Source: a virus. Taken from it: a stretch of DNA of 22,053 nt. The position numbers were made by a program, and so were the translations under genes. The notes beneath the pieces are model-generated. The model was not told the DNA's origin, did not search any database, and saw only the letters and a program-made list of their open reading frames with translations. The DNA is taken from IMG/VR virus record IMGVR_UViG_3300047386_000295, positions 1-22,053 of that record, one strand, 5' to 3'. Below, piece by piece: positions 2 through 22,053 of the stretch. The first letter of the stretch is position 1; each line of letters begins with the position of its first letter.

Positions 2-3000
2 ACAGAGCTAAACGTTAAGCTGGCAGATGAAGGTAAGCCTACTGTCGACATACGCATACAAGGCAAGTCGATCTTTGATATCACTAGCCAAGACTTGTTA
101 GGTCCAATAGGCGACGTTGTGGCGGCAAGAGCAGACGGTGCCGATGTACAGCTCCGTGATGTGCTAGGCGCTAGAGGCCAAATGGCTGGTTCTCGAATTG
201 AAACAAGAGTAAATCCTGGGGACAATGATTGGGTAGCTAAAGCCGAAGATGAGATAGACCGCATTGAGGCAGCTAACTACCAGAACAATTTGCCCTTTTA
301 TGAAGAAGGTGACGGACCAACCCCCCAGGAACAGCGAGAGCTTGAAAAGTTAGCACGGTTAACTGAGCGAGAACGCGATGCGATTTATGCTAAGTATAAA
401 GCAAGGTCAAAAGCCAGCGTTTCAACTACAGTCGTTACGGATCGCAAGTCAGATAATTTTGTCAGTGTAGAATTCACGGATTCGTTCGGAGAGCAGTTTT
501 CTGTCCGCCGCGAAAACAACCGTCCTAACGGCAAGCCACTTACGCTAGAGACTGCAAAGAAAGAGGTTGCTCGCCTTGAGCGAGATGGTTTCAAACCGGA
601 ATTGCGTCTCACGCCTAAGAACAGCGCTTTTGTTGTAACTGCAACGCGCCGTGTACCGCGCGGCGATGCCGTAAACGCCCCGACTCTTAGTGAGCGTGAC
701 CCGCAGCCTTCAGAACTCGGTTCCAACTTAGCGGGAGCGCCTCAGCCAGCTAGCCAAGCCAGAATTGAGCAGATAATCACCGCTAAACAAACTCAAACCA
801 CTAGAGCGAAAGCCGTTGATGAGGCCTTAGCACGCGAGCAATTTACTGAAGTAGAAAGCGTAGAAGAGTACTTCTACAGCGCAGAAGAAGCTGATGCTTA
901 CGCAACTAGGCTGCGCGACACAGAAGGCTTCGATAACGTCACTGTCAAAGACCCTGTCGTAAATGAAGGCGCTAACCGAGACACAGAACAAGGTCTCGGT
1001 GACGAAGTCATGGGCATGAGCACGTCGAACTACAACAAAGACGGTTTTGATGCTGCTGACCCAGATCTGCCTAAAACACGATTGAATCTGGAGATGAACC
1101 CACGACGCGACGTTGATCGCAGCTTGGGCGGGAAGAACAGGCAAACGTATGGACGCCAGACTTATCGTGGCGCTGAATACCCCTTCGGTAGCTTGGGTAC
1201 GATATCGACTGAGTTTGTGACTAAGACGATCGCTAAGATAAAGCCAAAGAAGCCGGTAATCGTTATTGGTCTTTCGCAACTTAAAAAACTTACTCCTGCA
1301 AAAATTGCAGAGCAGTTTAACGATCCGCAAGTCGCCGCTATGATCACGAACGTTGCAGCTGAGTTAGCGAGCAACAACGATAAACGCGGGGAGTATATCG
1401 GTTTTACCAATGCTCACGTTGCTTTGGTTGATGATATTAGTGTAGCTAATGACCTACAAACCGCTTTAATTTCTGCCCACGAAGCGCTGGGGCATGTTCT
1501 GTTTAATGAAGAGATTGAAGGCACACTAGCTAACCCCGCCTTGAGAAAGAGACTTGAACGTGACTTTGAGAAAGCGCGCACGGCTCCGGGCGCACCTGCA
1601 CAGTATCAAACTGAACACGGGTTCGAAGAATGGTTTGCGGATCAGACTGCAATCACAGCTAAGAACATATACATCAGGGATCAGAAGCAGCCCAACGGTG
1701 TTGTAGGCAGAACCTTTGCGAAGATAGCTGAGAAGCTAAAAGCTATGTGGGACTCGCTAAGCGCGGAGTTCAAACGCCGATTTGGTAAAGACTCCTACTC
1801 AAAGAGCTTTGATGACTACATAGAAAACACCATCATTAAAGAACGAGCGCATTTGCGACAAGTGGCTGGCAAGGCGTCAAGAGAAGTGGCTTACAGCAAA
1901 AAATCGCTTGTTCGGGCGATGGAAGAGTCGATCACAAAGAACCCCGATGCCCAGCAAAGCGTTAACTCAATGCTTCGCAACTTCAAAGATCATATTGATG
2001 GCACTGCTGCTGGCCACACCATGTTTAAAATGGTGCTACCAGAGGACAACATTCTTCGCGGTATTAGCCCAGTAATAGCCGACATGATGTACGCGCGTTC
2101 AAATGCTAAATCTCGGGCCAACAACCAGTTTGGTTATCTCAAGTCGAAAGACCATGTACGCGGACAAGTGTATGACCAACTCGAAAAGATTCTCGGTACA
2201 AACTGGGAAGCTAAAGAAGTACAAGATGCATTTGAGCTTGCGGCAGACCAAGACAAGAAGACTGAAGACTTGGACGGCAAGGCTCGTGAGATTAGAGACT
2301 GGCTAAACAAATTTTACGACGACTACATCGCCAAGACCCCAGGCAATGAGATAGCTAAGCGCGGAGACTTTTTTCCCGTGGCGCTAGACTTGGCGGCTAT
2401 TTTTAACAACGAAACTCGTGCAATCGCGGAAGGCGCGCCAGAGACCACATTTACTGAGATTGTCATCAAGTACAACCCACTTGCTAACGAGGAGACCATT
2501 CGCCAAGCGGTAAGCGGTCTTGTCGCGAGACAGCAAAGTATCATAAATGACAATGAGATTACCTTTGACGCTCAAAACCCACAGAGCGTCGTTGAAAAAG
2601 CGCGAGTACTGACACAAAACATACCGCACAGTGAATTGAAGCCGTTCATTGAAAAGCCAGAAGTGGCATTGATGAAGTACATACGGCACGTAATTACGCG
2701 TTCTGAATGGAAACGTAACACCCACGACGCAGACGGCAACGACATGCTTGCGTCTGAGTTGGCTAAGTTACCTGAAGCGAAGCGCAAAGAAGCGGTCACC
2801 ACCCTAGAGCGATACCTCGGTTACACAGATAAGCCACTAAACCCAAGGCTTTCCAAAGCTATGTCTTGGATGCAACTGTTTAACTGGGTTACGTTGTTGC
2901 CGCTAGCTACTATCGGGTCTATCCCAGAGTTTGGTGGTGCTATCGTTAACACTAAAGAGTTCAACGGTTTTGGCATGGCTAAGAACGCCATACTCTCGCG

Positions 3001-4652: not shown

Positions 4653-5000
4653 ATGACAGAGTTTAAGTACTTCAAGATAGAAGATTTTGACTGCCAAGAG
4701 ACTGGCGAGAATGAAATGCAAGAAGATTTTATTCACGCACTAGATCAACTGAGAGCAGCATGCGGTTTCCCGTTCTATATAACGAGCGGTTTTAGAAGTA
4801 AAAATCACAGCGTCGAGAAGCGAAAGGCAGAACCAGGCACCCACGCACAGGGCATTGCCGCAGATGTCGCAGTACAAGGTGGCGCTCAACGGCGCGCAAT
4901 TGTGGCTCATGCATTGGCAATGGGGATGTCCGTTGGTGTTGCAAAGGGCTTCGTACATGTAGACATCAGAAAGACCACTCCAGTCCTTTGGTGCTATTAA
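4653..5000 (+). CDS. M15-family peptidoglycan endopeptidase (endolysin)
   Basis: This 115-residue protein has the zinc-binding layout of the peptidase M15/VanY-like group: GTHAQGIAAD at 62-71 supplies a histidine (H64) and an aspartate (D71), and HVD at 102-104 supplies a second histidine. TSGFRS at 44-49 matches the conserved strand before the first motif. Family members cut the peptide cross-links of peptidoglycan and serve as small single-domain phage endolysins, about this length. There is no signal peptide or membrane anchor, so it should depend on the holin encoded 650 bases upstream. It is the last gene before promoter A, and no classical terminator is seen after it. Confidence 0.85.
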   Translation: MTEFKYFKIEDFDCQETGENEMQEDFIHALDQLRAACGFPFYITSGFRSKNHSVEKRKAEPGTHAQGIAADVAVQGGAQRRAIVAHALAMGMSVGVAKGFVHVDIRKTTPVLWCY

Positions 5001-5008
5001 TTACTAGC

Positions 5009-5033
5009 ATTATATTAGTTCAGCTAATATAAT
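5009..5033 (+). promoter_or_regulatory. Promoter/operator A
   Basis: ATTATATTAG at 5009-5018 and CTAATATAAT at 5024-5033 form a perfect 10-bp inverted repeat around TTCAG. The right arm ends in a consensus -10 box, TATAAT (5028-5033). The -35 region 17 bases upstream (TAGCAT) is poor, which suggests that an activator is needed or that the bound protein acts as repressor. The predicted transcript would start near 5040, leaving about 16 bases of leader with AGGTG as ribosome site. Same architecture as sites B and C. No T-run follows, so it is not an intrinsic terminator. Confidence 0.65.
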
Positions 5034-5055
5034 CAGATAACATACAGGTGTAAAA

Positions 5056-5430
5056 ATGGCGTATTCACAAACACTTAACCTTGTTGCAGGTGACACTCTG
5101 CCAGAGCTGACTTTTACGCTAAAAGACAGTCAAGCCGCAGCGTCTGGCAAAACGCTAGACGAAAATGACGCTTCTACGTGGGCTCCGATTGATATAACAG
5201 GCGGCTCGGTAAAACTACGTATACGAGAGCTTGGTAGTACAACCGTGAAGAGCACGCTTTCCTGCACAGTAACTGATGCCACGAACGGGAAAGTAGCCAC
5301 TAACTTCCCTACTGGGACGCTAGATACAGCTGGTACGTTTGAAGGTGAGATTGAAATGACCTTTGCTAACGGCGGTATTCAGACTGTTTATGACTTGTTA
5401 AAGCTAAAAGTACGTAGTGATTTTGACTAA
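5056..5430 (+). CDS. BppU-N-like baseplate/tail appendage protein
   Basis: This 124-residue protein is the first gene after promoter A, with AGGTG six bases before the ATG. It starts with a beta-rich segment (residues 5-22, GDTLPELTFTLKD) and continues as alternating strands: PIDITGGSVKLRIRE, a run ending in CTVTDATNGKVA, and GTFEGEIEMTFANGG. This order and the DITG...VKLRIR signature resemble the N-terminal Ig-like domain of baseplate upper proteins (BppU_N/DUF2479), which attach receptor-binding parts to the tail. Here the domain stands alone as a small protein, so it may be an adaptor for the following fibre genes. The fold assignment is moderate and the exact place in the virion is inferred from context. 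Confidence 0.6.
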   Translation: MAYSQTLNLVAGDTLPELTFTLKDSQAAASGKTLDENDASTWAPIDITGGSVKLRIRELGSTTVKSTLSCTVTDATNGKVATNFPTGTLDTAGTFEGEIEMTFANGGIQTVYDLLKLKVRSDFD

Positions 5431-6122
5431 TGGGTCCGAAGGCTAGCGTTACTTACGTAAAAATTACTGGCAGAGCCGCCTACCAGTTAGCAAAGGGCGA
5501 AGTGTCATACACAGACATGACTGCCACTGAGATTAAGTTGGATGCGTATCCAATAAATCAGTATCTAGACGACCCTTTTAATTTTTCGGATGTAGCAGCG
5601 CTGCATACGCAAAAGACAACCTTAGACAGCTTGGGATTCACTGAATCTCAGGCCATTGCGTTAGCTAAAAGCGCAGTTGATAGCGTTGGATTTAGCGACT
5701 CAGTCAGTTTGCTGGTGACAGTTATACGTGACTTTACCGATTCGTTTGCGGTGACAGACGCATCTGTCTTTACGTTTGACAAAGGTATTAGCGATCAGGT
5801 CGCTCTGTCCGAAGTAATTGATCGAGCGTTTGATACAAGCAAAGCAGACTCCATATCACTCGGAGATTTGTACAGCAGTACTTATGCCAAACCTGCAAGC
5901 GACGCGTTTTCGGTGTCTGACTCGTTTAGCCGTGTTGCGAATTTTTCCAGAGGCTTTACCGAAGCGTTCGGTCTGGACGAAGTAGTAAACGTTAGCCCGA
6001 ACTGGGGCGTCGAGAAAACAAATGTGCTGTCGTTCTCAGACAGTTTTAGTTACGAGATAAGAGCTGGTCACAACGCTGTACTGAACACCTCAGCATTAAA
6101 CACATTCACACTTAATTCATAG
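5430..6122 (+). CDS. Repetitive virion protein with DSFSVSD-type repeats
   Basis: The ATG shares a base with the preceding stop (TAATG) and has no clear ribosome site, so translation is probably coupled. The first 60 residues (SVTYVKITGRAAYQLAKG) look like a small beta domain. The rest is an irregular repeat built around F-x-D-S/F-S-V-S-D-S units: DSLGFTES, DSVGFSDSVS, DFTDSFAVTD, SDAFSVSDSF and LSFSDSFS, spaced about 25 to 40 residues. Such Ser/Asp-rich repeats occur in tail and fibre proteins of marine phages, where they form elongated beta structures. No enzymatic motif is visible. Tail appendage is inferred from its neighbours on both sides. Confidence 0.5.
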   Translation: MGPKASVTYVKITGRAAYQLAKGEVSYTDMTATEIKLDAYPINQYLDDPFNFSDVAALHTQKTTLDSLGFTESQAIALAKSAVDSVGFSDSVSLLVTVIRDFTDSFAVTDASVFTFDKGISDQVALSEVIDRAFDTSKADSISLGDLYSSTYAKPASDAFSVSDSFSRVANFSRGFTEAFGLDEVVNVSPNWGVEKTNVLSFSDSFSYEIRAGHNAVLNTSALNTFTLNS

Positions 6123-6131
6123 GATAAAACC

Positions 6132-6557
6132 ATGATTAATGAAGCATTAAAACTGACAGGCCATGTAACCGTGGCAATCAACAATGAAGTGGTGCAAGAG
6201 ATACCCAACCTCGTCGTTACGGCTGGTAAGGGTTACGTTGCTAGCCGCATGAAAGACACCACAGCTGGCGCTATGAGTCACATGGCTACAGGCACAGACA
6301 ACACAGCTGCAGCTGCAGGTGATACCGCGCTCGGTTCAGAGTCTGGTCGTGTGTCTTTAACCTCTACCACTGTTAGCAGCAACGTTATTACTTACGTAGC
6401 TACGTTCCCAGCTGGCACAGCGACGGCGGCTCTTACTGAAGCAGCGATTTTGAACGCTTCTAGCGGCGGCACAATGTTGTGCAGAACAGTCTTTGCAACT
6501 GTGAACAAAGGTTCTTCAGATGCTATGACCGTGACTTGGGCAATAACCGCTTCGTAA
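6132..6557 (+). CDS. Tail fibre-like structural protein
   Basis: This 141-residue protein has an AGGA ribosome site overlapping the upstream stop codon. It is beta-rich and Ala/Thr/Gly-rich, with segments NLVVTAGKGYVASRM near residue 26, MATGTDNTAAAAGDTALG in the middle, and a C-terminal part reading AAILNASSGGTMLCRTVF followed by MTVTWAIT. I recognise this order from small structural proteins encoded among fibre genes of many marine phages, usually annotated as virion or tail fibre protein. It has no catalytic motif or membrane segment. It lies between two other appendage genes at short spacing on the same strand, which supports a shared role in the adsorption apparatus. Confidence 0.55.
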   Translation: MINEALKLTGHVTVAINNEVVQEIPNLVVTAGKGYVASRMKDTTAGAMSHMATGTDNTAAAAGDTALGSESGRVSLTSTTVSSNVITYVATFPAGTATAALTEAAILNASSGGTMLCRTVFATVNKGSSDAMTVTWAITAS

Positions 6558-6569
6558 GAGAGGTTTCTC

Positions 6570-7157
6570 ATGGCAGTTTTATTTCACAACAATGCGACTA
6601 CGACGCTGTCGGCGGGTGTTAGCGATTCTGCCACATCTATTACGGTGGCAGATGGGTCAGCGTTTCCAGCGCTTTCTGGTAGCGACTACCTTTATCTGAC
6701 TCTTGAAGTAGACAGCGACCCGACGCTTAAAGAGATTGTTAAATGTACGGCTCGTAGCAGTAACACGTTGACGGTCGTTAGAGCCCAAGATAACTCTACT
6801 GCCCGTACCTTTTCGTCAGGAGATAAGTGTGAGCTTAGGCTTACCGCTGCAGGTTTAAACGATGTTGCAACACAAGCTGATACAGACACTACCTACACAG
6901 TGGGCGATGGCGGTCTAACGCAGAACAACTTCACCGATGCGGACCATACCAAGCTCGATGGTATAGAGGCTAATGCCACTGCTGACCAGACAAATGCCGA
7001 GATACGTGCGGCTGTTGAGGCCGCAAGCGACTCAAATGTGTTCACTGATGCAGATCACACGAAACTCAATAATGCAGGTACACAATCTGTTGTCACTACG
7101 GCTCCCACCAGTGCCAGTGGCTTTGCAAACGGACACGTCTGGTATGTAGTGAGCTAA
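6570..7157 (+). CDS. Tail fibre protein with FTDADHTKL repeats
   Basis: The gene starts at an ATG six bases after AGAGG and encodes 195 residues. Residues 1-95 form a beta-rich head (TTLSAGVSDSATSITVADGS...LTVVRAQ). After a linker come two copies of FTDADHTKL, at 121-129 and 158-166, separated by a segment rich in alanine and acidic residues (ATADQTNAEIRAAVEAAS). These units are widespread in tail fibres of marine phages and are thought to form trimeric shaft structure. The C-terminus (ASGFANGHVWYVVS) resembles the short tip sequence of related fibre proteins. It belongs to the operon begun at promoter A and precedes the Thr/Ser-rich protein by only nine bases. Confidence 0.65.
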   Translation: MAVLFHNNATTTLSAGVSDSATSITVADGSAFPALSGSDYLYLTLEVDSDPTLKEIVKCTARSSNTLTVVRAQDNSTARTFSSGDKCELRLTAAGLNDVATQADTDTTYTVGDGGLTQNNFTDADHTKLDGIEANATADQTNAEIRAAVEAASDSNVFTDADHTKLNNAGTQSVVTTAPTSASGFANGHVWYVVS

Positions 7158-7166
7158 GGGCCAGCC

Positions 7167-8339
7167 ATGTCAATAAAAGTTAACGACAGTGGTACTCTTA
7201 AAGAACCTACCCAAATCTTCGCTAAAGGGGATCAGGGAACGTTGTATGGCGTTAACTACGTTGTTGTAAACAACAACGGTACGTTAGGCACTGTCTGGAA
7301 TGCTGTCTATGACACAACCAGAGATACAAGTACCGTTTTTGCCACCGTCACAGCGTTTGATACCTCCACCAGCTATACGACCACCTATAGCACCAGTGCT
7401 GGCACGAGCAACGCGACTACGACAGCGTTCGACACGACCACTACTTTTGGTACGAGCAACGCTACGACTACAGCCTTTAACACCACGACTACTTTCGGTA
7501 CTTCTCGCGGCACCAGCAAAGCAACCACCACGTCGTTCAACACAACGACCACTTACGGTACAAGCAGATCAACTACTACGTCGTACACCACATCGTTTAA
7601 TACGGCTATCGTCACGTCGTTTAACACGTCGCGTACCACGACTTACAACACACAGACACACGCACAAAGCTACCCAGGGTACTCCACAAATAACAGGGTA
7701 TTACGCACGAGTAGCAGTATTGGTGGCGATTTATCAAGCTGGACATACGGTGGCACAGCAATTGCTTCGGCTCAAGCCACCACCACCACTTATTCGGCGG
7801 GCGGTTTTACATACCAGCGGGGCGCTCAACACAGTACCGGTTATGATGCGACTTACGGCGTCACGAGCTACAATTATCGAATTAAGAGGCTCGCCAGAAC
7901 CCGCAGCACTTCTCGCACCACTACTTATGGAACCTCTCGCGGAACCACCCGTGGAACCTCTCGCGGCACCAGCAAATCAACCGCCACGTCTTTCAACACG
8001 TCTCGCGCCACTGGCACCAGCAGATCAACTACTACGTCGTACACCACATCGTTTAATACGTCTCGCGCCACTGGCACCAGCAGATCAACTACTACGTCGT
8101 TTAATACGTCGCGGGCTACTGGCACCAGCAGATCAACTACTACGTCGTTCACTACGACTTTTGACACTAACAACACTACCGCGCATGACACAGGGACAAG
8201 TAGATCGACTAACACGAATCGGGATACGTCCACGGTGGTTTACGAAAGACTTACAGCAACGGGTAATGAGACCGAAGTAGGCAGTCAAGGCGCTAACAAT
8301 CGCCGTTATTGGGATGGCTCACAGTGGACGGAAGACTAA
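7167..8339 (+). CDS. Thr/Ser-rich repeat tail appendage protein
   Basis: This 390-residue protein has a short non-repetitive head (residues 1-45). Two large blocks (about 50-160 and 246-355) consist of units such as TSRSTTTSFNTS and RATGTSRSTTTS, in which most residues are Thr or Ser with regular Arg, Phe/Tyr and Asn. Between them is a mixed region (about 165-245) rich in Gly and Tyr. The C-terminus ends in RYWDGSQWTED, a motif like short terminal segments of other fibre proteins. The DNA repeats are near exact (see repeat entries). Context says tail fibre or adhesin. The density of hydroxyl residues makes it a good candidate substrate for the glycosyltransferase-like proteins encoded next, but no modification signal can be read directly. 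Confidence 0.6.
   Translation: MSIKVNDSGTLKEPTQIFAKGDQGTLYGVNYVVVNNNGTLGTVWNAVYDTTRDTSTVFATVTAFDTSTSYTTTYSTSAGTSNATTTAFDTTTTFGTSNATTTAFNTTTTFGTSRGTSKATTTSFNTTTTYGTSRSTTTSYTTSFNTAIVTSFNTSRTTTYNTQTHAQSYPGYSTNNRVLRTSSSIGGDLSSWTYGGTAIASAQATTTTYSAGGFTYQRGAQHSTGYDATYGVTSYNYRIKRLARTRSTSRTTTYGTSRGTTRGTSRGTSKSTATSFNTSRATGTSRSTTTSYTTSFNTSRATGTSRSTTTSFNTSRATGTSRSTTTSFTTTFDTNNTTAHDTGTSRSTNTNRDTSTVVYERLTATGNETEVGSQGANNRRYWDGSQWTED
7563..7604 (+). repeat. 42-bp exact direct repeat, copy 1
   Basis: This 42-bp stretch in the first Thr/Ser block of the tail protein recurs exactly at 8019-8060 in the second block, 456 bp downstream. The distance is a multiple of three, so recombination between copies would keep the frame while deleting or duplicating the middle region. 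Confidence 0.85.
8001..8149 (+). repeat. Tandem repeats of 60 and 48 bp in Thr/Ser block
   Basis: TCTCGCGCCACTGGCACCAG occurs at 8001 and again at 8061, and the matching sequence continues through ACTACGTCGT, giving an exact 60-bp period. A third unit follows after about 48 bp with a few silent-type changes (GCGGGCTACT in place of GCGCCACT). Both periods are multiples of three. The array encodes RATGTSRSTTTS units. Includes the second copy (8019-8060) of the 42-bp repeat found at 7563-7604. Confidence 0.85.
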
Positions 8340-8473
8340 TGGATGATATAGCTCGAAAATTAGAAAACACGCTTGACGTAATTATGGAGCACTTTTCAGA
8401 AACAGAAGACCGTATTTCTGAACTCGAAGAGCAGGTGGCTCAATTGGTAAAAAGACTTGAAGAAACTAGCTGA
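8339..8473 (+). CDS. 44-residue coiled-coil protein
   Basis: This short gene begins at an ATG that shares its A with the stop of the Thr/Ser protein (TAATG) and ends at the TGA at 8471. The product is acidic and helical throughout: it starts MDDIARKLENTLDVIMEH and ends with a clean heptad stretch from RISELEEQVAQL to KRLEE. A short coiled coil encoded right after a fibre gene could be a trimerisation or assembly aid, or a capping piece. I do not recognise a family. It overlaps the next gene by 17 bases and its only support besides reading frame is coding-like overlap spacing on both sides. Confidence 0.6.
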   Translation: MDDIARKLENTLDVIMEHFSETEDRISELEEQVAQLVKRLEETS

Positions 8474-9350
8474 GAATGACGAGTTTGGTAACCCCGCTGC
8501 GCACTTTTTCAAAAGCGGAAATGTACTGAGGAACAGAAAGAGCGACCAGTTAATAGCGATCAAGAAGCTGTTACCGGAGACGTGGAGAGGTACAAAGATC
8601 GAATATGACCTTTGGTACAACTTTAGCGACGGCAAGATACATGGCTACGTTTATACGGACTTGCTGACGAAGTTCATTTACCTAAGAGCAGCGAGTATAG
8701 AACACGCGTCTAAAACGATGCAGCAAGCTGCGAGCGGCAAAATTAACGCGGTTGGCGAGCGTTGGTTCAATGATATTGCTGAGAACAATGAAGACAAGTA
8801 CCGACTACGATCGACTGGAGAGGAACATGACTTCGTTATCTTCCTCCCAGGTACGAACATATTAGACAAGGTTACGGACTGGCCTAAAGTCGAGAGAGCA
8901 ATAGCGCAAGGCGCGAAACTCAAGTGCCACCCGCTTACGTCGCCAACTGTGTATCAGCATTTAGTACATAAGTACGGCGCAGAGAACATTATTGAAAAGA
9001 AGAAGAGTGGCAACGCAATACTAGATCGAGCGGCGATTGTGGGCTGCTGTGAAAACAGTGAGATGGGCATTGTAGCCCTTGCAAAAGGTAAGAAAGTTTA
9101 CTTATTCGGCAAGCGCGATGAATGGTGTACGTACACGGCAATTTACAGGGCGTTGGAAACTCAAGGCGTTCTTCGAGTAGACCGCTTGAAAGCGCTTTTA
9201 AGTAGCGATAGTTCGGGGCTAATACCGTCAAGCCCCGATAGTCATCAGGATAACGTGACTAACTTTTTTGATCAGTACATAGGAGTTGAGCATGTCGCGC
9301 CCAGAAGTTTTAGTAGTCGAGTGCAACAGGCTGGCGTCGTTAACAGTTAA
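8457..9350 (+). CDS. Glycosyltransferase-like protein, KpsS/GT-B type
   Basis: The protein is up to 297 residues. No ATG is available before 8718 in this frame, so a TTG start at 8457 inside the end of the coiled-coil gene is the best choice, though not certain. The region from about residue 125 reads FVIFLPGTN, then LKCHPLTSP, then a segment ending in NSEMGIVALAKGKKVYLFGK. A strand, an HP motif, and a Ser/Glu-containing loop before a Gly-rich turn is the pattern of the C-terminal nucleotide-sugar half of capsule-type GT-B enzymes. The N-terminal half has no motif I know. It overlaps the next gene by 59 bases and lies in a cassette with another transferase-like gene and a sulfotransferase. 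A sugar-transfer role is inferred; donor and acceptor are unknown. Confidence 0.5.
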   Translation: MKKLAENDEFGNPAAHFFKSGNVLRNRKSDQLIAIKKLLPETWRGTKIEYDLWYNFSDGKIHGYVYTDLLTKFIYLRAASIEHASKTMQQAASGKINAVGERWFNDIAENNEDKYRLRSTGEEHDFVIFLPGTNILDKVTDWPKVERAIAQGAKLKCHPLTSPTVYQHLVHKYGAENIIEKKKSGNAILDRAAIVGCCENSEMGIVALAKGKKVYLFGKRDEWCTYTAIYRALETQGVLRVDRLKALLSSDSSGLIPSSPDSHQDNVTNFFDQYIGVEHVAPRSFSSRVQQAGVVNS

Positions 9351-10008
9351 CTCTGTAAAAACGAACATGCCTGACTGGGACTATAAGGTGGTGCCCTACG
9401 TTGGAGGGTTTATACCTACAGCCCTGAAGAATCTCACAAAGACAGCGTTAGTGGTGAAGAGCGGAGTTATTTTGGACGTTAAAGATGGGGATATGCCGTC
9501 TTGGGAACTGCTCAGTGAGTATGACATTTGTTTGAGCCGCGCAGGGGTATTTAGCGACCACCCTAAACACAGTCAGGCTTATAAGCTCATCGGCAGCAAG
9601 ATTGGTAAAAACCATTTAGACCTGAGCGTTTTTATTATTAACCCAGAACGATGGGCTGACATACCAGCTTCGGATGTGGGGGTGCTGCAAACAGCAAAAC
9701 GTCTACGCATGCCGAGACACATGAACCATAAAAGCGATGCGCTCATCGCGAATGTTTTGTCAGGGAAGCTGGCGATGGATTACGGAATGCTCGCCGAAAA
9801 CGCTTCTATTTGTAACTACGTAGATGTGTTTGAAAAAGGTTCAGCCAATGGTAACGAGATGTTTGCCTACGCTCTGGAAAAAGCATCACCGTTCGCAGAC
9901 GAGTTACCAACCGTAAAAAAGTTGGCAGAGAAAACGCTAGCTCGCGTTGCAAAGCTGCGAGTCGGGTTAGCAAAAACATTATTAGAGGACACAACTGATG
10001 AACATTGA
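9292..10008 (+). CDS. Putative glycosyltransferase, GT-A-like
   Basis: The start is the ATG at 9292, six bases after AGGAG; an in-frame TTG at 9286 would leave no spacing. The 238-residue product opens with VLVVECNRLASLTVNSVK, a strand-helix start typical of GT-A folds, followed by TALVVKSGVILDV and a short acidic turn (DGD, near residue 66). Later come DICLSRAGVF and LDLSVFIINPERW, similar to the acceptor-side strands of small glycosyltransferases. The C-terminal 40 residues are a basic amphipathic helix. No unambiguous DxD motif in the usual place is visible, so activity may be lost or the call may be wrong. The pair of overlapping transferase-like genes suggests that the products act together. 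Confidence 0.4.
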   Translation: MSRPEVLVVECNRLASLTVNSVKTNMPDWDYKVVPYVGGFIPTALKNLTKTALVVKSGVILDVKDGDMPSWELLSEYDICLSRAGVFSDHPKHSQAYKLIGSKIGKNHLDLSVFIINPERWADIPASDVGVLQTAKRLRMPRHMNHKSDALIANVLSGKLAMDYGMLAENASICNYVDVFEKGSANGNEMFAYALEKASPFADELPTVKKLAEKTLARVAKLRVGLAKTLLEDTTDEH

Positions 10009-10354
10009 GTATGAAGCAAAAATACTAGAGCTATATACGATCCCCGAACAAGACGGACGCGAGAACGTCGTCAAAAAAGTGCTGTGGCAGGTAGAGTTTT
10101 TTGATCCTGATTTCCGCCGCGCAGTGAACAGCCAAGGTCAAATACTGACATACCTGAACACTGACACTCTGTCTGATTCATTTATCGATTACAGCAGTAT
10201 AACCCAGCAGCAAGTATTGCAGCTTTGCCTTGATCGCGAAGGCGGGTCGGATTTCTTGGAACATCTACAAGGCGCACACGAAGCTAATTTATCAGCGCAG
10301 TATGCTGACCGATATTTAACACTGCGCCCAACGGCAGAACTGGCGGTCAGCTAA
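9998..10354 (+). CDS. Conserved-style phage protein of unknown function
   Basis: This 118-residue gene overlaps the preceding one by 11 bases. The N-terminal half appears beta-rich (EAKILELYTIPEQ, VVKKVLWQVEFFDPD) and the C-terminal half helical, with SITQQQVLQLCL and a final segment around SAQYADRYLTLRP. The layout of a tryptophan-containing strand, an acidic loop, and a 'Y-x-S-I-T-x-x-x-V' turn reminds me of small hypothetical proteins found among tail genes of cyanophages and other marine phages, but I cannot name a family with confidence. No active-site motif, signal or membrane segment is visible. It may be a structural protein carried in the accessory cassette or a partner of the transferases. 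Confidence 0.5.
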   Translation: MNIEYEAKILELYTIPEQDGRENVVKKVLWQVEFFDPDFRRAVNSQGQILTYLNTDTLSDSFIDYSSITQQQVLQLCLDREGGSDFLEHLQGAHEANLSAQYADRYLTLRPTAELAVS

Positions 10355-10932
10355 TGACCATTAAAATGGCAAAGCAGGGTGTTTTTAGCACTAACCCGAT
10401 GGGGGGCCACGCGGTGCCGCAGTGGGAAACAGTGCAGGAGTTTTGCGAGTGGTGGAATGCTGCGAATCGACCAATTGCACCACCAGACGAAGTTGTAAAT
10501 TTAAGCGACGACGCCACCTCTTTTTGTTTGTTTAGAAGCGGTCAGTTTCAGGTTGAACTGTATCTGATACACCCTTGCCCAAACTTACCTATCCACGGAC
10601 ACCCAGACGTTGATGTGATCAAGATGCGCTTGGACACCTGGGCAGTAGATGACGCAGGTCAGTTGAAACAGATCACCTACAGAGAGGCATCCGAGACTTT
10701 AGTTACAGGCGAGACTCATGGCGCAGGCGTCAATTTCAAAGGTCGTGATGTAGTGGACGGCGGTTTTGGGCTGCTTGCCTTTCAAAAATGGAAGGATGGC
10801 CTTACACCTACAACGGTCGCTGCCCGCTGGAAGGGGCCGACTGTAGGACCAATGCAAGAGGATCTGATTCGCAGACTTACACCAGGGGCCACCGTATCGG
10901 ATGGTTACGCAGACACAACCGGAGTACCATAA
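10354..10932 (+). CDS. Possible cupin-fold protein
   Basis: The ATG shares a base with the previous stop (TAATG), so translation is coupled. Of 192 residues, the middle (about 65-125) reads as a beta barrel: FQVELYLIHPCPNLPIHGHP followed by DVDVIKMRLDTW, then a second histidine region (GETHGAGVNF) and GGFGLLAFQKW. An HxH motif followed by a later histidine within alternating strands is what cupin metal sites look like. Cupins include sugar epimerases, isomerases and dioxygenases, which would suit a sugar-modifying cassette. The usual glutamate between the histidines is not obvious. I therefore give the fold moderate to low weight and make no claim on the reaction. Confidence 0.35.
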   Translation: MTIKMAKQGVFSTNPMGGHAVPQWETVQEFCEWWNAANRPIAPPDEVVNLSDDATSFCLFRSGQFQVELYLIHPCPNLPIHGHPDVDVIKMRLDTWAVDDAGQLKQITYREASETLVTGETHGAGVNFKGRDVVDGGFGLLAFQKWKDGLTPTTVAARWKGPTVGPMQEDLIRRLTPGATVSDGYADTTGVP

Positions 10933-11582
10933 TGTATCTTTCAAAAAAGCATAAACTTCTGTTCGTAGCGGTTCCCCGCACTGCATCCAATAGCGTCCAA
11001 AGGGCCATATTAGATTCAGACATTACAGATAGCACCGATGTAGTTTACTCACTGACAACCCCCCAAGACATCACAGCGATGAAAGCGTATCACGCTACGC
11101 CTGCGGTGCTGGTCAACACAAATGTTGTAACAGCAGATGAACTTAGCGAGTACACCGCGTTTGGTTTTATACGCGAGCCTTTTGAAAGGTGGGTGTCGGC
11201 TTTCTTTTTAGGAAGACACTCAGGCGCGTTAGATGCGTCAGAAGACCCTCTTGATCAGCTATGCAATCTTGTGAGATATGCAAGTTCGCCCCGCTATAAG
11301 TTTTTTTCATATAGGGATTACTTCTTTATGGGCGACACTCAGGTAGCAACGGCATATCGATGGGAGGACGTAGAGGCTGTAACAAAGAGCATTCTTGGCG
11401 ACAAGTTAGGAACTCCCGTAACTGCGGAGTTTCCAAGCATACAGATGAATCCGAATGGTGTACCCGCCGAATTCAGAGAGCCTGTACAAGATTGGCTACC
11501 TGCTGATTGCTACACCAAAATGGTTCAGTATTTTGCTGAAGAGACAGCTTTTTTTGACGCAACGCCGCGTTTTGAAGGGTAA
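10932..11582 (+). CDS. Sulfotransferase family protein
   Basis: I take the ATG at 10932, which overlaps the previous stop (TAATG), instead of an upstream in-frame start at 10788. The 216-residue protein carries both cofactor motifs of PAPS-dependent sulfotransferases. FVAVPRTASNSVQRAI at 11-26 corresponds to the 5'-phosphosulfate loop after the first strand. FGFIREPFERWVSAFF at 77-92 corresponds to the 3'-phosphate-binding R-x-P-x-x-R-x-x-S motif, with R81 and S89. Later motifs (YRWEDVEAV, near residue 150) also fit. Members transfer sulfate from PAPS to sugar hydroxyls or tyrosine. It is the last gene of the accessory cassette, after two glycosyltransferase-like genes, so a sulfated glycan or sulfated virion protein is the natural guess. 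The acceptor cannot be told from sequence. Confidence 0.7.
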   Translation: MYLSKKHKLLFVAVPRTASNSVQRAILDSDITDSTDVVYSLTTPQDITAMKAYHATPAVLVNTNVVTADELSEYTAFGFIREPFERWVSAFFLGRHSGALDASEDPLDQLCNLVRYASSPRYKFFSYRDYFFMGDTQVATAYRWEDVEAVTKSILGDKLGTPVTAEFPSIQMNPNGVPAEFREPVQDWLPADCYTKMVQYFAEETAFFDATPRFEG

Positions 11583-11634
11583 TTATTACGAAGAGAAAGC
11601 ATGGCCTGAACTCCCCTTTTTACTACGTTTAGTG

Positions 11635-11663
11635 TTTAAAAGTATTAGCATAGCTAATATAAT
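11635..11663 (+). promoter_or_regulatory. Promoter/operator B
   Basis: TTTAAA (11635-11640, 4 of 6 to the -35 consensus) is followed 17 bases later by TATAAT (11658-11663). The spacer is filled by ATTAG-CATAG-CTAAT (11644-11658), extending to TATTAGC-ATA-GCTAATA. A protein bound there would cover the promoter. Predicted transcription starts near 11670, only about 11 bases before the ATG, with AAGAGG (11670-11675) at the very 5' end. Confidence 0.65.
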
Positions 11664-11680
11664 AAGTGCAAGAGGTTATG

Positions 11681-13384
11681 ATGGTTTATTTTAAAAGAGA
11701 AAAATTTGCAGGCATTGCACCAGCAGTCAATCCTCGACTGTTGGCGGAGAGATTCGGGCAGATTGCAGAGAACATTGACTTTGAGTCCCAACACCTGAAA
11801 TCTGTTACTCACGATTCTGATACGTATTTGCTGCAAAATTCTGCGCGACGTTCTATATATTTTTACCGCGACACAAATTGGTTGGAGTGGAGCGAAGAAG
11901 ACGTCTCTGCAGTGCCAGGGCCTATACCAGGGGATACAACTGATCGCCTGTATTATACCGGAGACGATTACCCGCGCGTTGGTACATACGCCACTTTAGT
12001 GGCTGGCAACAACGGTTACCCTAATACGTCGTATCGTTTAGGAGTTCCCGCGCCTTCCGCTGCCCCTACTGTCGTTATAAATAACACAGCCGATGACAGT
12101 CTCACGCCCGATGACGTTAGCTATGTGTATACGTTAGTAACCGCTTTTGGCGAAGAGGGTCCACCTAGCGACCCAAGCGGTGCGATAGAAAAAGATGCTG
12201 GTCAAACCGCAACACTTACTTTAGCTACAGGCAGCTTACCATCTGGTAACTACAATTTTGGCGCTGGTGCAAAAAAGCGCATATACCGTTCCAATACAGG
12301 TTCTACAAACACTCGGTTTCAGTTTGTAGCTGAAGTGTCATACAACACTACTTCGTATACCGATAGCACCGAGTCAGCGTTTTTGGGTGAAGTATTGCCA
12401 AGTGATACTTGGATTGGTCCGCCAGATGATGATGCGAACCTGTATCCCGATGGCCCGTTGCAGGGCTTAATCCCACTCGCACAAGGCGTCATGGCAGGCT
12501 TTACAGGCAAGCGTTTCTGCTTGAGCGAACCATTTCTTCCGCATGCTTGGCCGATCCAATATCGGATTACGACTGAAGAAGACATTGTTGCGATAGCAAG
12601 CACTTCTAATGGCGTAGTTGCTCTGACAGACGGTCAGCCTTATTTCATTACTGGTACTGACCCTAGTGCTATGACGGCGATTCGAATAGATCTGGCACAA
12701 GCCTGCGTCAATACACGAAGCGTTGTAGATATGGGCGACTACATCATTTATGCGGGGCCGGATGGCTTATGCACAGTGCAAGGCGCTCAAGGAGCTGTTG
12801 CAACGCAAGGCCAAATTAGTGCTAAACAGTGGAACGATGACTTCAACCCCACCACTATTCGAGCGTTTAAGCATGAAGGCACGTACGTAGCTTTTCATGC
12901 TGGTGGTGGCTGGGTATACGACCCCCGCAATCAGGACGCAAGCCTAACTACATTAACAGTTTCTGGAGATATTAGAGGCGGCTACCGGAACCCGAAAGAC
13001 GGCCAGCTTTACGTTATTGTCGGCAACAAAATTCGTAAGTACCGTGGCAGCACCACGCCTAAGAACCTCAAGTTCAAGACCAAAAAGTTTGTATCACCTA
13101 CTCCGATCTCTATGGGTTGGATCTCAGTCAACGCAAATGCTTACCCAGTAACAGTAAGGGTATACGGCGACGGCTTCCTTGTTGCTCATTATGTACTTAG
13201 TAAATCAGGAGGAACATACACGCAGGCTACTACTGTGCCTGCCGGAGTTAGTAATGGCACTTTACAAGAACCAATCATGCGCATGCCCGCTGTTATTGCT
13301 CAGGAGTGGGAGGTTCAGGTAGAAGGGACAGACATAAATGAGTTTTGTCTTGCACAAGCGATGGACGAGGTGCGCGGTACATGA
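11681..13384 (+). CDS. Tail nozzle/tubular-type structural protein
   Basis: Three in-frame starts are close together (GTG 11666, ATG 11678, ATG 11681); the last has AAGAGG at five bases and is chosen, giving 567 residues. The N-terminus (FAGIAPAVNPRLLAERFGQIAENIDF) has the opening seen in many phage tail tubular B/nozzle-like proteins. A beta sandwich with VSYVYTLVTAFGEEGPPS around residues 145-165 resembles a fibronectin-like insert. The centre reads MAGFTGKRFCLSEPFLPHAW, then ALTDGQPYFITGTDPSAMT, strings I associate with a widespread marine phage virion protein. It is the first gene after promoter B and overlaps the next by 4 bases. The nozzle role is by resemblance; another baseplate part is possible. 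Confidence 0.6.
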   Translation: MVYFKREKFAGIAPAVNPRLLAERFGQIAENIDFESQHLKSVTHDSDTYLLQNSARRSIYFYRDTNWLEWSEEDVSAVPGPIPGDTTDRLYYTGDDYPRVGTYATLVAGNNGYPNTSYRLGVPAPSAAPTVVINNTADDSLTPDDVSYVYTLVTAFGEEGPPSDPSGAIEKDAGQTATLTLATGSLPSGNYNFGAGAKKRIYRSNTGSTNTRFQFVAEVSYNTTSYTDSTESAFLGEVLPSDTWIGPPDDDANLYPDGPLQGLIPLAQGVMAGFTGKRFCLSEPFLPHAWPIQYRITTEEDIVAIASTSNGVVALTDGQPYFITGTDPSAMTAIRIDLAQACVNTRSVVDMGDYIIYAGPDGLCTVQGAQGAVATQGQISAKQWNDDFNPTTIRAFKHEGTYVAFHAGGGWVYDPRNQDASLTTLTVSGDIRGGYRNPKDGQLYVIVGNKIRKYRGSTTPKNLKFKTKKFVSPTPISMGWISVNANAYPVTVRVYGDGFLVAHYVLSKSGGTYTQATTVPAGVSNGTLQEPIMRMPAVIAQEWEVQVEGTDINEFCLAQAMDEVRGT

Positions 13385-17233: not shown

Positions 17234-18256
17234 ATGGGAACGATAACAAAGCGCGGAAAGAAGTGGAAAGCTCAGATCCGCATCAAGGGTTACCCACAAC
17301 AAACACAAAGTTTTTTCACTAAAGCAGCCGCCGCTTCATGGGTTTTAAAAATAGAATCCCAGATGGACAATCATTCGTGGGTAGACGTCAGCGGTACGCG
17401 GTCTACTCACATTGATTACTTGGTCGACCGACTAGTAGCCGAAAATACTAAGTTTGGAATCGTTACCCCTGTCCCGAAGATGGGACAACTTAACCAGATC
17501 AAAAAATATTTTAGCGGTGTATCGATACACGATATGACCTACGACATGGTTATGGATTTTGCAGCTATGCGCTACAAAACGATTTCCGCTTCAACGCTCC
17601 AAAAACAGATGTACTACTTGCGTCAGGTCGTAGAAGCCAGTCGCATCACAACTCAAGAGAATGTTGTAGCGCAAGCTATTGACGAGTTGAAAAGAAAGAA
17701 GGTGATCAAGGGCAGCGTGTGGCGTACGCGTCGGCCAACCCCGTCTGAACTAGAAGCACTGAAGTTTGAGTGCGGTATTTATGAAGGCAGTAATGAAAAG
17801 CCTAATTGGCTGTGGTACGCGATCGACATAGCTGTTCACTCTGGTCTACGCCAAGGGGAAATTCACGAATTAAAATGGTCTAACGTGTGTTGGGAAAAGG
17901 ATCTTGTCCTCGTGAATCGGAAAGATAAAGACTCAGAAACAGGCAAGTCTTGGAAGGAAGTACCGCTTGTGGAGGGCGTGAGAGAGGCGTTGCTACGCGC
18001 ACAGAATGATCTTGGGCAAGGTGATTACCCTTTTACTGTAAAGACTACTGCGTCGATTTCTGACAAGTTTGCCAAGATGACTAAGAAGCTGGGGATTGAC
18101 GACCTGCGCTTCCATGATTTGCGTCATGAGGCGATAAGTCGGATGTTTGAGAGGGGGATGCGAGTTGAACAAGTGCAAGTTGTTTCGGGACACAGTTCAC
18201 TTGAACAACTCTCAAGGTACGTCAATCTTCGCGCGGAAGATTTAGCTGGGATGTGA
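17234..18256 (+). CDS. int: Tyrosine recombinase integrase
   Basis: The 340-residue protein has the three expected parts. Residues 1-45 form an arm-binding beta domain (GTITKRGKKWKAQIRIKG). Residues 55-155 are the helical core-binding domain. From about 165 comes the catalytic domain with R206 (SGLRQGE), a lysine in the beta hairpin at 230-241, H294 and R297 (FHDLRHEA), H320 (SGHSS) and the nucleophile Y329 (SRYVNL). The set is complete, so the enzyme should be active. It catalyses recombination of attP with a bacterial attB, here presumably a tRNA-Ser gene. No ribosome site is visible, and the arm repeats occupy its place. The 3' end overlaps the convergent excisionase-like gene by 35 bases. 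Confidence 0.93.
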   Translation: MGTITKRGKKWKAQIRIKGYPQQTQSFFTKAAAASWVLKIESQMDNHSWVDVSGTRSTHIDYLVDRLVAENTKFGIVTPVPKMGQLNQIKKYFSGVSIHDMTYDMVMDFAAMRYKTISASTLQKQMYYLRQVVEASRITTQENVVAQAIDELKRKKVIKGSVWRTRRPTPSELEALKFECGIYEGSNEKPNWLWYAIDIAVHSGLRQGEIHELKWSNVCWEKDLVLVNRKDKDSETGKSWKEVPLVEGVREALLRAQNDLGQGDYPFTVKTTASISDKFAKMTKKLGIDDLRFHDLRHEAISRMFERGMRVEQVQVVSGHSSLEQLSRYVNLRAEDLAGM

Positions 18257-18434
18257 AGTATTTAGCAATTTCTTGGGTCGGAAAAAGATACTTTTTACCG
18301 CGTCGCACATGAGGTACGTCTAGTTGGCCGCGATATATCTGCTGATACATCGACTGTTTCTTGATCCTTAATAGATCGGCAAGTTCTTCCAAGTCCATGA
18401 ACGGGCCGTACTTCTCTAATAAGATCTGTTCCAC
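18222..18434 (-). CDS. Excisionase-like MerR/HTH_17 protein
   Basis: I start at the GTG at 18434 because AGGAGG lies nine bases upstream; a longer frame has no such site. The 70-residue product contains MDLEELADLLRIKKQSMYQQ, a helix-turn-helix, followed by a wing (LDVPHVRRGKKYLFP) and a final helix (TQEIAKYF). This is the layout of the small winged-helix proteins that include phage excisionases, which bend attachment-site DNA and direct integrase to excise. Position next to the integrase gene supports that role. It is the last gene of the leftward operon and its stop codon falls two bases from the integrase's catalytic Tyr codon. A regulator without excision role is the alternative. Confidence 0.65.
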   Translation of the reverse strand: MEQILLEKYGPFMDLEELADLLRIKKQSMYQQIYRGQLDVPHVRRGKKYLFPTQEIAKYFTSQLNLPRED

Positions 18435-18453
18435 CGAGTGTTGCCTCCTGCAA

Positions 18454-18479
18454 CTTATATTTGTGAAACTAATATTAGT
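18454..18479 (-). promoter_or_regulatory. Candidate regulator site upstream of the excisionase-like gene
   Basis: ACTAATATTAGT (18468-18479) is a perfect 12-bp palindrome in the 61-base gap between regulator and excisionase-like genes. Read on the minus strand, ATTAG-TTTCA-CAAATATAAG (18478 down to 18454) also resembles sites A to C with one mismatch in the right arm and one in the -10 box. That -10 would be only four bases from the ribosome site, so a regulator site is better supported than a promoter. Confidence 0.4.
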
Positions 18480-18495
18480 ATAGGTACTGTCAAAG

Positions 18496-19071
18496 TCAAT
18501 CTGTAATGCTGTTGTTAACCTCCGTTTCGAGTACGGCAAACTTTTTGCTTATGTCTGAGTCAGGCGGTAAGTCTTCTTTCTTGTAAATGCGAGCTTCTTT
18601 TTGACCCTTAGCTTGGACCATAAAAATGCTAGCGTTGGGGTGATCTTTTGGCGGGCACACATGAGTGAACCACGTAGCGTTCTTGTTTGAGCTACCAGTT
18701 CGGTAAGTGAAAATGCTAGCGTCTGTTTTCACCCAGAAAGAAGATGGGGGGTGAGTGTCGTAGTATTTTACATTGATCTGTTTTGACAGATTCGAAGCGT
18801 CATACTTGATTATTCGGGTTCTAGTGTGAGGCAAGAACTCTTGAACGTTTGGGTCGATCTCAACAGGATCAACACATAAAAAATTAGCGAACTTAATGAC
18901 TGCTGCTGGACCTAGTTCGGTAATGTTGTTGAGGTAATGGGATACAGCGCTTTGTGACCAGCCAAGTTTTCCCGCAGCTTCAACCTGCGTAAACTTCATT
19001 TCGGCTTTCTTTTGATCCCAAATAGCGCGTAAATTATTCACGGCTTGTGGTAACTCGTGGGCTTTTTTCAT
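18496..19071 (-). CDS. XRE-family regulator with degenerate S24-like C-terminus
   Basis: The 191-residue protein has an N-terminal Xre/Cro helix-turn-helix: residues 27-47 read FTQVEAAGKLGWSQSAVSHY, then LNN. After a linker, residues 105-185 have the strand pattern of CI/LexA-type peptidase domains (SFWVKTDASIF...FMVQAKGQKEARIYKK). The usual Gly-Asp-Ser-Met is replaced by TDAS and no clear catalytic lysine lies in its expected strand, so self-cleavage looks lost. That argues against a standard RecA-induced switch, although the alignment is mine by eye. The ATG at 19071 lies inside the nuclease gene (38-base overlap) with AGGA upstream. It is the best candidate to bind the ATTAG-N5-CTAAT sites, which is inference only. 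Confidence 0.7.
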   Translation of the reverse strand: MKKAHELPQAVNNLRAIWDQKKAEMKFTQVEAAGKLGWSQSAVSHYLNNITELGPAAVIKFANFLCVDPVEIDPNVQEFLPHTRTRIIKYDASNLSKQINVKYYDTHPPSSFWVKTDASIFTYRTGSSNKNATWFTHVCPPKDHPNASIFMVQAKGQKEARIYKKEDLPPDSDISKKFAVLETEVNNSITD

Positions 19072-19465
19072 CCGCTCGTCCTGAGTGTGTTTGGTTGTAG
19101 ATCCACTCAGCTACCTGCTTTCGTGGAATACTTTCTTCTACATACCTATCCTTATATATATTAGCTGAAAATTCGTCAACTATTATTAGTGCAGAATCTT
19201 CAACTCCTAATATTAGTGCTACCGAAGTACTCACTTTCATACGTTCTAACCATGCACATTGGAGCGGTGATAACGAATGACGGATCACAGTTGTGTCTTT
19301 CTTGGGTAGGGTTTTGACATACTTGTACTCGACGAACAGCACACCTGCTGGACCTGCATACATGGCGTCGGGCACACCTCCCGTATACGTGTCGTGGATT
19401 TTCCACTTGTAGACGTCGGGTGACAGAGCGTTATGTATGCTTCGTACAAAACCGTGCTCGTTCAT
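19034..19465 (-). CDS. VRR-NUC-type PD-(D/E)XK nuclease
   Basis: The 143-residue protein shows a PD-(D/E)XK core: GGVPDAMY at 29-36 gives the aspartate (D33), and FVEYKYVK at 44-51 gives E46-Y-K48, with a helix before (FVRSIHNAL). The short spacing and GxPD start fit the VRR-NUC subgroup of phage and repair nucleases, which may act on branched DNA. A small standalone VRR-NUC beside an SNF2-like helicase is a common phage pair. The ATG is the only start in frame after an upstream TGA, yet no ribosome site precedes it; the leader is the folded element described separately. The middle of the gene holds three TATTAG sites spaced about 26 bases. Confidence 0.75.
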   Translation of the reverse strand: MNEHGFVRSIHNALSPDVYKWKIHDTYTGGVPDAMYAGPAGVLFVEYKYVKTLPKKDTTVIRHSLSPLQCAWLERMKVSTSVALILGVEDSALIIVDEFSANIYKDRYVEESIPRKQVAEWIYNQTHSGRADEKSPRVTTSRE

Positions 19466-20256: not shown

Positions 20257-20661
20257 TTAAAGTTTTCGGAAATTGACGCGTCTTACGGTACGAGGCGCTA
20301 AGCCAGGGACAACTTCGCCCATCTTTAGCAGCTCTTTGTAAGCAGTCGAACTCACACGTCGTTGAAGCAAGCTGAAATCCTGAGTACTTGTGACATGCTC
20401 ATAGAGAGCATCCCAGTCAGTAACATCTGGCACAGTGTCTTCGTTGATCGACACAGAAGCGTTTTCATTTGCTGTTCTTGAAACCCCTTCTGAGTCCATC
20501 TTCTTGAGCAGGAGAACGTCTATGTAATCTTGTTCTCCACGCAATTCTTTTAGCTGTTTATTCAGCTGATCCATTTGGCCTTTGATTTCGGCACGATGGT
20601 TGATTAGTTCAGTGATGCTTTGGTTTTCTAGGCTAGATGCCGCTAGTTCTACTACGCTCAT
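20257..20661 (-). CDS. Conserved phage protein with N-terminal coiled coil
   Basis: The 134-residue gene overlaps the helicase stop by 4 bases (ATGA). Residues 15-55 form a coiled coil (ELINHRAEIKGQMDQLNKQLKEL). A middle strand region (ASVSINEDTVPDVTDWDALYEHV) and an ending with FSLLQRRVSSTAYKELL and VPGLAPRTVRRVNFRKL follow. I recognise this architecture from a small protein found in early operons of many marine phages; its function is unknown to me. The coupling to the helicase gene suggests a partner or loader, which is inference. No enzymatic motif or DNA-binding fold is evident. Confidence 0.55.
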   Translation of the reverse strand: MSVVELAASSLENQSITELINHRAEIKGQMDQLNKQLKELRGEQDYIDVLLLKKMDSEGVSRTANENASVSINEDTVPDVTDWDALYEHVTSTQDFSLLQRRVSSTAYKELLKMGEVVPGLAPRTVRRVNFRKL

Positions 20662-22030: not shown

Positions 22031-22053
22031 ATAATATTAGCACAGCTAATATT
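22031..22053 (-). promoter_or_regulatory. Promoter/operator C for the leftward operon
   Basis: AATATTAGC-ACA-GCTAATATT is a perfect 9-bp inverted repeat running to the window edge. Read on the minus strand it gives CTAAT followed by TATTAT (22036-22031), a -10 box with 5 of 6 matches in the same register as in sites A and B. The start would be near 22024, leaving a leader of about 17 bases before the helicase ATG. The -35 region lies beyond the window. Confidence 0.6.

Follow-up and report, generated by a model that had tools for sequence, protein, structure and literature searches.

The window, by which we mean the whole 22,053-base IMG/VR virus record that was analysed, carries a podovirus-like structural module along with genes for an M15 endolysin-like protein, a tyrosine integrase, an XRE protein, an HTH_17 protein and an SNF2-like helicase. 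The source is an uncultured marine phage that is probably temperate; a near-identity search of cultured phage records gave no near relative of the window, and the virion protein encoded after site B (gene B in what follows) is distantly related, at ~32%, to proteins from Vibrio, Aeromonas and enteric phages. An Rfam scan of the window gave no match. The features that bear on the analysis are these:

1436-1450, plus strand: a fourth exact match to ATTAG-N5-CTAAT, within a large virion-protein ORF and absent from the original prediction
5009-5033, plus strand: site A, putative operator-promoter ATTATATTAG-TTCAG-CTAATATAAT, with its core at 5014-5028 and a -10 box TATAAT at 5028-5033
5056-5430, plus strand: gene for a 124-aa protein downstream of site A, with a weak BppU_N-like match
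11635-11663, plus strand: site B, with a -35-like TTTAAA at 11635-11640, putative operator ATTAGCATAGCTAAT at 11644-11658 and a -10 box TATAAT at 11658-11663
11681-13384, plus strand: gene B, which follows site B and encodes an internal virion protein-like product (phrog_511)
17234-18256, plus strand: tyrosine integrase, as would fit a temperate phage
18222-18539, minus strand: HTH_17 small protein (excisionase-like), the next gene after the XRE gene
18496-19071, minus strand: XRE protein of 191 aa, the proposed repressor for all sites, with an HTH domain closest to lambda CI
19151-19216, minus strand: proposed repressor-maintenance promoter, within the upstream nuclease-like ORF
20658-22007, minus strand: SNF2/DEAD-like helicase, the first gene downstream of site C
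22031-22050, minus strand: site C, with putative operator ATTAGCTGTGCTAAT at 22036-22050 and a -10 box TATTAT at 22036-22031

The palindrome ATTAG-N5-CTAAT is found four times in the window against 0.07 expected, and four copies were reached in no shuffled sequence, which agrees with the original claim that its repetition is not due to chance. The sites A, B and C of that prediction, along with their shared -10 register, proved exact in their coordinates on re-checking. Each of the three lies in a gene gap, together they make up three of the four matches, and the register of the -10 box is identical across them (TATAAT in A and B, TATTAT on the minus strand in C). At site A the arms reach 10 bp each (ATTATATTAG-N5-CTAATATAAT, 5009-5033), and the site is flanked by the M15-peptidase (endolysin-like) gene on one side and the 124-aa gene, starting at 5056, on the other. 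Site B stands upstream of the internal-virion-protein-like gene and has its -35-like TTTAAA 17 bp upstream, while a convincing -35 was not found at sites A and C. Site C, upstream of the SNF2-like helicase gene, is at the head of the leftward early operon; the contig ends 3 bases from it, and in the relative L005 more early genes and additional sites follow beyond this point. The fourth match, at 1436-1450, is probably a chance occurrence and was treated as such, since similar in-gene motifs in two other contigs sit in a different protein context.

Relatives of the phage were gathered through the XRE protein (17 loci, and 69 with alignment) and, as an independent set, through gene B (80 loci). 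Across the first 101 loci ATTAG-N5-CTAAT was counted 146 times as against 0-13 times for 29 other permutations of the arm letters, numbers that are inflated by kinship and come mostly from contigs that are fragments. Whole contigs carried the motif in 23 of 27 cases, with 0 matches to the reversed pattern, and a blind count of all 5-mer palindromes with gaps of 0-11 put ATTAG with a gap of 5 (or its extension, TATTA with a gap of 7) first in nearly all repressor-bearing contigs. As many as 15 copies were counted in one contig, and nearly all relatives have inner bases that fit ATTAGY-NNN-RCTAAT. When placement was counted in 12 long contigs together with the window, 78 of the 102 sites (76%) were found to lie between ORFs, although intergenic DNA makes up 12.3% of the sequence (p~1e-49). 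The junction at site A recurs in ~18 relatives, with the operator kept and TATAAT usual; at the place of site B an operator is present in 14 relatives, several of them with unrelated upstream genes; and at the promoter of site C it is present in ~35, with base changes that are coordinated. The conservation in related genomes on which the original prediction hinged is seen, at homologous promoters, and so is an enrichment between genes.

The further idea that the operator is fused to a -10 box needs to be narrowed. Of 62 near-start sites in the relatives, 27 have a -10 matching at 5/6 or 6/6 positions in this register and 12 have one on the mirrored side, so that fusion is common but not universal; it holds for A, B and C and fails as a general rule. 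The placement at operon heads likewise describes many sites that stand before gene groups, but other sites fill gaps inside operons, as in the early same-strand operon of L005, L009, L017 and L018, where they occupy successive gene gaps. The mean match per spacer gave no clear peak at 16-18 bp for a -35 shared among relatives, and in one class of sites a TTG that keeps a constant position appears to belong to the end of the upstream ORF.

The XRE protein is the proposed reader of these sites. Its HTH domain matched lambda-type CI alone among PDB profiles (E 1e-7 to 4e-6), and in the predicted structure (pLDDT 90) the domain aligns to lambda CI (3kz3/1lmb) with Z 11-12. Two Gln residues that align with the operator contacts Q33 and Q44 of lambda CI are invariant, and a 17-bp frame, if centred as in lambda, would place an A at half-site position 2 as there. 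The predicted beta domain at the C-terminus aligns loosely to full-length CI, and apart from the N-terminal match to lambda the structure search left this domain without a clear assignment; Pfam gave no match to an S24 peptidase domain, and no invariant Ser/Lys pair was found in the C-terminal half. An alignment search of GTDB genomes with XRE yielded no relative.

The XRE gene points the same way as the early operon, at the end of which it lies, and the gene upstream of it is the nuclease-like ORF. Inside that ORF, the proposed promoter element at 19151-19216 consists of a -35 TTGACG (19174-19179), a 17-bp spacer and a -10 TATAAG (19151-19156), and it is plausible from its sequence that TTGACG-N17-TATAAG is the promoter for the repressor. 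Operator half-sites stand at 19159-19164, 19184-19189 and 19207-19216, with a spacing of 23-25 bp. Most relatives with the closest repressors have half-sites 90-150 bp before the XRE start, again inside the nuclease-like ORF and 23-25 bp apart, and codons under the two half-sites that lie closer to the repressor have a synonymous difference of 0.00-0.31 as compared with a mean of 0.47. Besides the dispersed operators there may be a lambda-like repressor-promoter element. We also observed CTAATATTAG together with two near-matches to the operator (1-2 mismatches each) at 18459-18488, in the 5' region of the HTH_17 gene.

If XRE reads the palindrome, the two would be expected to occur together. 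Among the 40 contigs chosen by gene B, at least 2 sites were present in 20 of 25 with the repressor and in 4 of 15 without it (p=0.002), and at lengths of at least 40 kb in 11 of 12 and 0 of 4, respectively (p=0.003), both comparisons being confounded by kinship. Four contigs without a detected repressor had 2-5 sites, and all of them are incomplete and shorter than 40 kb. When contigs of at least 15 kb were picked by the motif instead (n=31), the repressor was present in three, including the two richest in sites (8 and 11), and in G085, which has 6 sites, it was not found. The only exception among the long contigs is G026, whose recognition helix, WGQSNFSHYIANINKL, is divergent and which carries 13 copies of a different palindrome in the same geometry, TAGTA-N7-TACTA; this pairing of a divergent repressor with 13 palindromes of its own (L158-L160) looks like a parallel regulon of switched specificity.

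The operators also seem to follow the repressor in sequence. Repressors with Pro-51 in the recognition loop pair with TAATA-N7-TATTA operators, and on the tree this change has two independent origins, both in the expected direction, a number too small for the tree test to be significant. At the SNF2 promoter both halves of the operator changed together, to AATAC..GTATT in L121 and to AATAG..CTATT in L119, and the capsid-gene promoter reads AATAGCTATACTATT in the Pro-51 phage G047 and has no operator in the repressor-less G019. Some relatives (L011, L012 and L016) have canonical-helix repressors alongside half-changed operators. In all, operator bases change with the recognition region of the repressor in three lineages, a covariation that is confounded by kinship and in which a number of the A-class calls have a single site behind them. 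The same sequence is found beside related repressors outside the group: Rac-SA53 of E. coli, the nearest cultured homologue, has an exact copy of ATTAGCCTCACTAAT within the 107 bp that separate its repressor gene from the cro-like one, and no other copy in 6.2 kb, and G075, an isolate prophage found by motif alone, has a single site between CI-like and Cro-like genes. In the gap of Rac-SA53 (L102:2896-2935), ATTAGCCTCACTAAT and AATAGTCAGACTATC stand 25 bp apart, and the repressor region of this prophage occurs in 176 of 5,426 complete E. coli genomes.

Conservation, intergenic placement, co-occurrence, covariation, the two outgroup prophages and the synonymous constraint at the half-sites are largely independent lines, and together they support the single regulator with dispersed operators that had been suggested, with XRE as its proposed reader. 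We are confident, on this comparative evidence, that ATTAGY-NNN-RCTAAT is very probably the operator of the phage's own lambda-CI-like XRE (18496-19071), which would occupy it at many sites of the genome and lock promoters A-C. In the prophage state, repressor dimers would sit on many sites along the genome, and at A, B and C, where the right arm supplies the first T of the -10 box, a dimer would cover both spacer and -10 and exclude RNA polymerase. The promoters so closed would be those of the virion gene (B), of the gene or block after the endolysin (A) and of the early leftward operon (C). The repressor itself is probably made from its own promoter in the nuclease-like gene, where it would read half-sites of the same kind and regulate its own synthesis, and its loss would open all of the local promoters together. 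Binding, repression by occlusion, autoregulation and the temperate state are the steps that we infer in this scheme. Promoter occlusion cannot account for all of the sites, since many are without a good -10, and those with no -10 in register may serve other promoter registers or act as roadblocks. Given the sequence evidence for one lambda-like repressor at all sites, silencing in this phage and in dozens of relatives would seem to act from many places at once, not from one central switch. A larger picture, which we put forward only tentatively, is that a lambda-CI-type repressor was rewired to dispersed operators across the genome, that blocks of genes travel with their own operator-promoter, and that the sites serve as locks, as roadblocks within operons and as junctions for module exchange.

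It could be argued that the same repressor works mainly as at a stoperator, halting elongating RNA polymerase in the gene gaps, and that promoters are secondary. The succession of sites in the early-operon gaps of the four relatives named above fits this, as do the many near-start sites without a 5/6 -10, but the near-perfect -10 in fixed register at A, B and C and the conserved junction at A do not, and stoperators, unlike these symmetric sites, are asymmetric and for the most part share one orientation (PMC6550527); we regard this alternative as unlikely. It is improbable that a second phage protein, either Cro-like or HTH_17, binds the sites as an activator or antirepressor target with XRE being incidental: lambdoid switches do put two proteins on the same operators (PaaR2 and YdaS of CP-933P, PMC8630535), and the HTH_17 gene directly follows that of XRE, but the covariation maps to the recognition residues of XRE and a palindrome over the -10 and spacer favours repression. 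A host regulator whose palindrome is exploited by phages would be in keeping with the relatives of gene B in host genomes, which are distant only (Endozoicomonas and Oceanospirillales MAGs, with 0-1 site each), but sites are mostly absent from relatives lacking the repressor, and we reject this very improbable reading because operator changes track changes in the phage protein and the same operator stands beside related repressors even in unrelated prophages. That AT-rich palindromes met common -10 boxes by chance, for which one might cite the AT-richness of these boxes and the first T that the arms supply, has practically no likelihood and is refuted by the permuted-arm, reversed and shuffled controls, which are near zero, and by conservation at homologous promoters.

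The preferred reading, in which XRE holds many dispersed operators, can be compared with known systems. In phage P1, 22 dispersed C1 operators silence separate lytic promoters (PMC8546580), so that the likeness is that of one repressor with many scattered operators; the P1 operators are asymmetric and 17 bp long, ATTGCTCTAATAAATTT (PMC8546580), whereas those described here are palindromic and go with a lambda-CI-like HTH. The stoperators of Cluster A mycobacteriophages are also dispersed, with motif changes that track the repressor lineage (PMC6550527), and are read by a monomeric, two-domain repressor (PMC9283540). Dispersed sites and a motif that follows the repressor lineage are common to both systems, but stoperators are asymmetric and stop elongation, while our phages have palindromic sites, with a promoter fused to each of A-C. 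The CI operators of lambda lie in two clusters, OR and OL. With lambda, which has six CI operators (PMC10742460), our system has in common the closest solved HTH structure, a 17-bp odd-centred palindrome and, upstream of the repressor, half-sites that are 23-25 bp apart; it differs in that the operators are dispersed and the repressor closes the early operon, and Pfam detected no S24 domain in it. This phage does not have the lambda arrangement of operators clustered between divergently oriented cI and cro, and the original contrast with a lambda-type single divergent operator stands, the sites being dispersed and XRE co-directional with the early operon. RacR of E. coli K-12 binds a gap with GCCTAA/TTAGGC repeats (PMC5700373), which have a related core, and the DicA-like homologue of Rac-SA53 has ATTAGCCTCACTAAT in its control gap; for regulators of this RacR/DicA type a single divergent control region is known, as opposed to the genome-wide operators here.

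Our literature search found no described phage operator of this sequence, nor any system that pairs a lambda-CI-type protein with symmetric genome-wide operators. From what the sequences suggest, the system would resemble P1 C1 and the stoperators in function and lambda CI in protein family, with its symmetric sites setting it apart. P1 and some actinobacteriophages are known to silence the whole prophage genome with one repressor, in both cases through asymmetric sites, and the same silencing is apparently achieved here with a lambda-CI-type protein and symmetric operators in a large group of uncultured phages. Residues of the repressor have changed together with many operators in this group, and these natural experiments make directly testable both the evolution of immunity specificity and the way in which a phage switches all of its operators at once.

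Several further observations concern the modules around the operators. In L090, L100 and L275 the endolysin-operator junction is directly joined to gene B and the whole A-B block (window 5000-11690) is missing, and since this block is skipped, the operators look like module borders. The block is variable among relatives, and in the window it encodes a sulfotransferase-like protein (10920-11582) just upstream of site B. Comparison of L005:6820-7033 with L010 and L032 revealed a cysteine-containing ORF of ~58 aa that has its own operator and precedes the SNF2 operator, and that is absent in some phages. Lastly, in relatives only and not in the window, a ~190-nt leader, MALTNFGTLTGDQLQTW..., which runs from the operator-promoter to the capsid-like gene, is very highly conserved, as in the following examples:

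L195, 12867-13071, plus strand: conserved capsid leader
L194, 6482-6686, minus strand: conserved capsid leader
L155, 5133-5337, plus strand: conserved capsid leader

Comparison of the leader with Rfam gave no significant match. It contains GGTCGGCCCGTAGCCGTAAAAAACGTA and is predicted to fold into a multi-hairpin RNA, in which 10 of 42 pairs are changed on both sides, and it is possibly an undescribed structured phage RNA.
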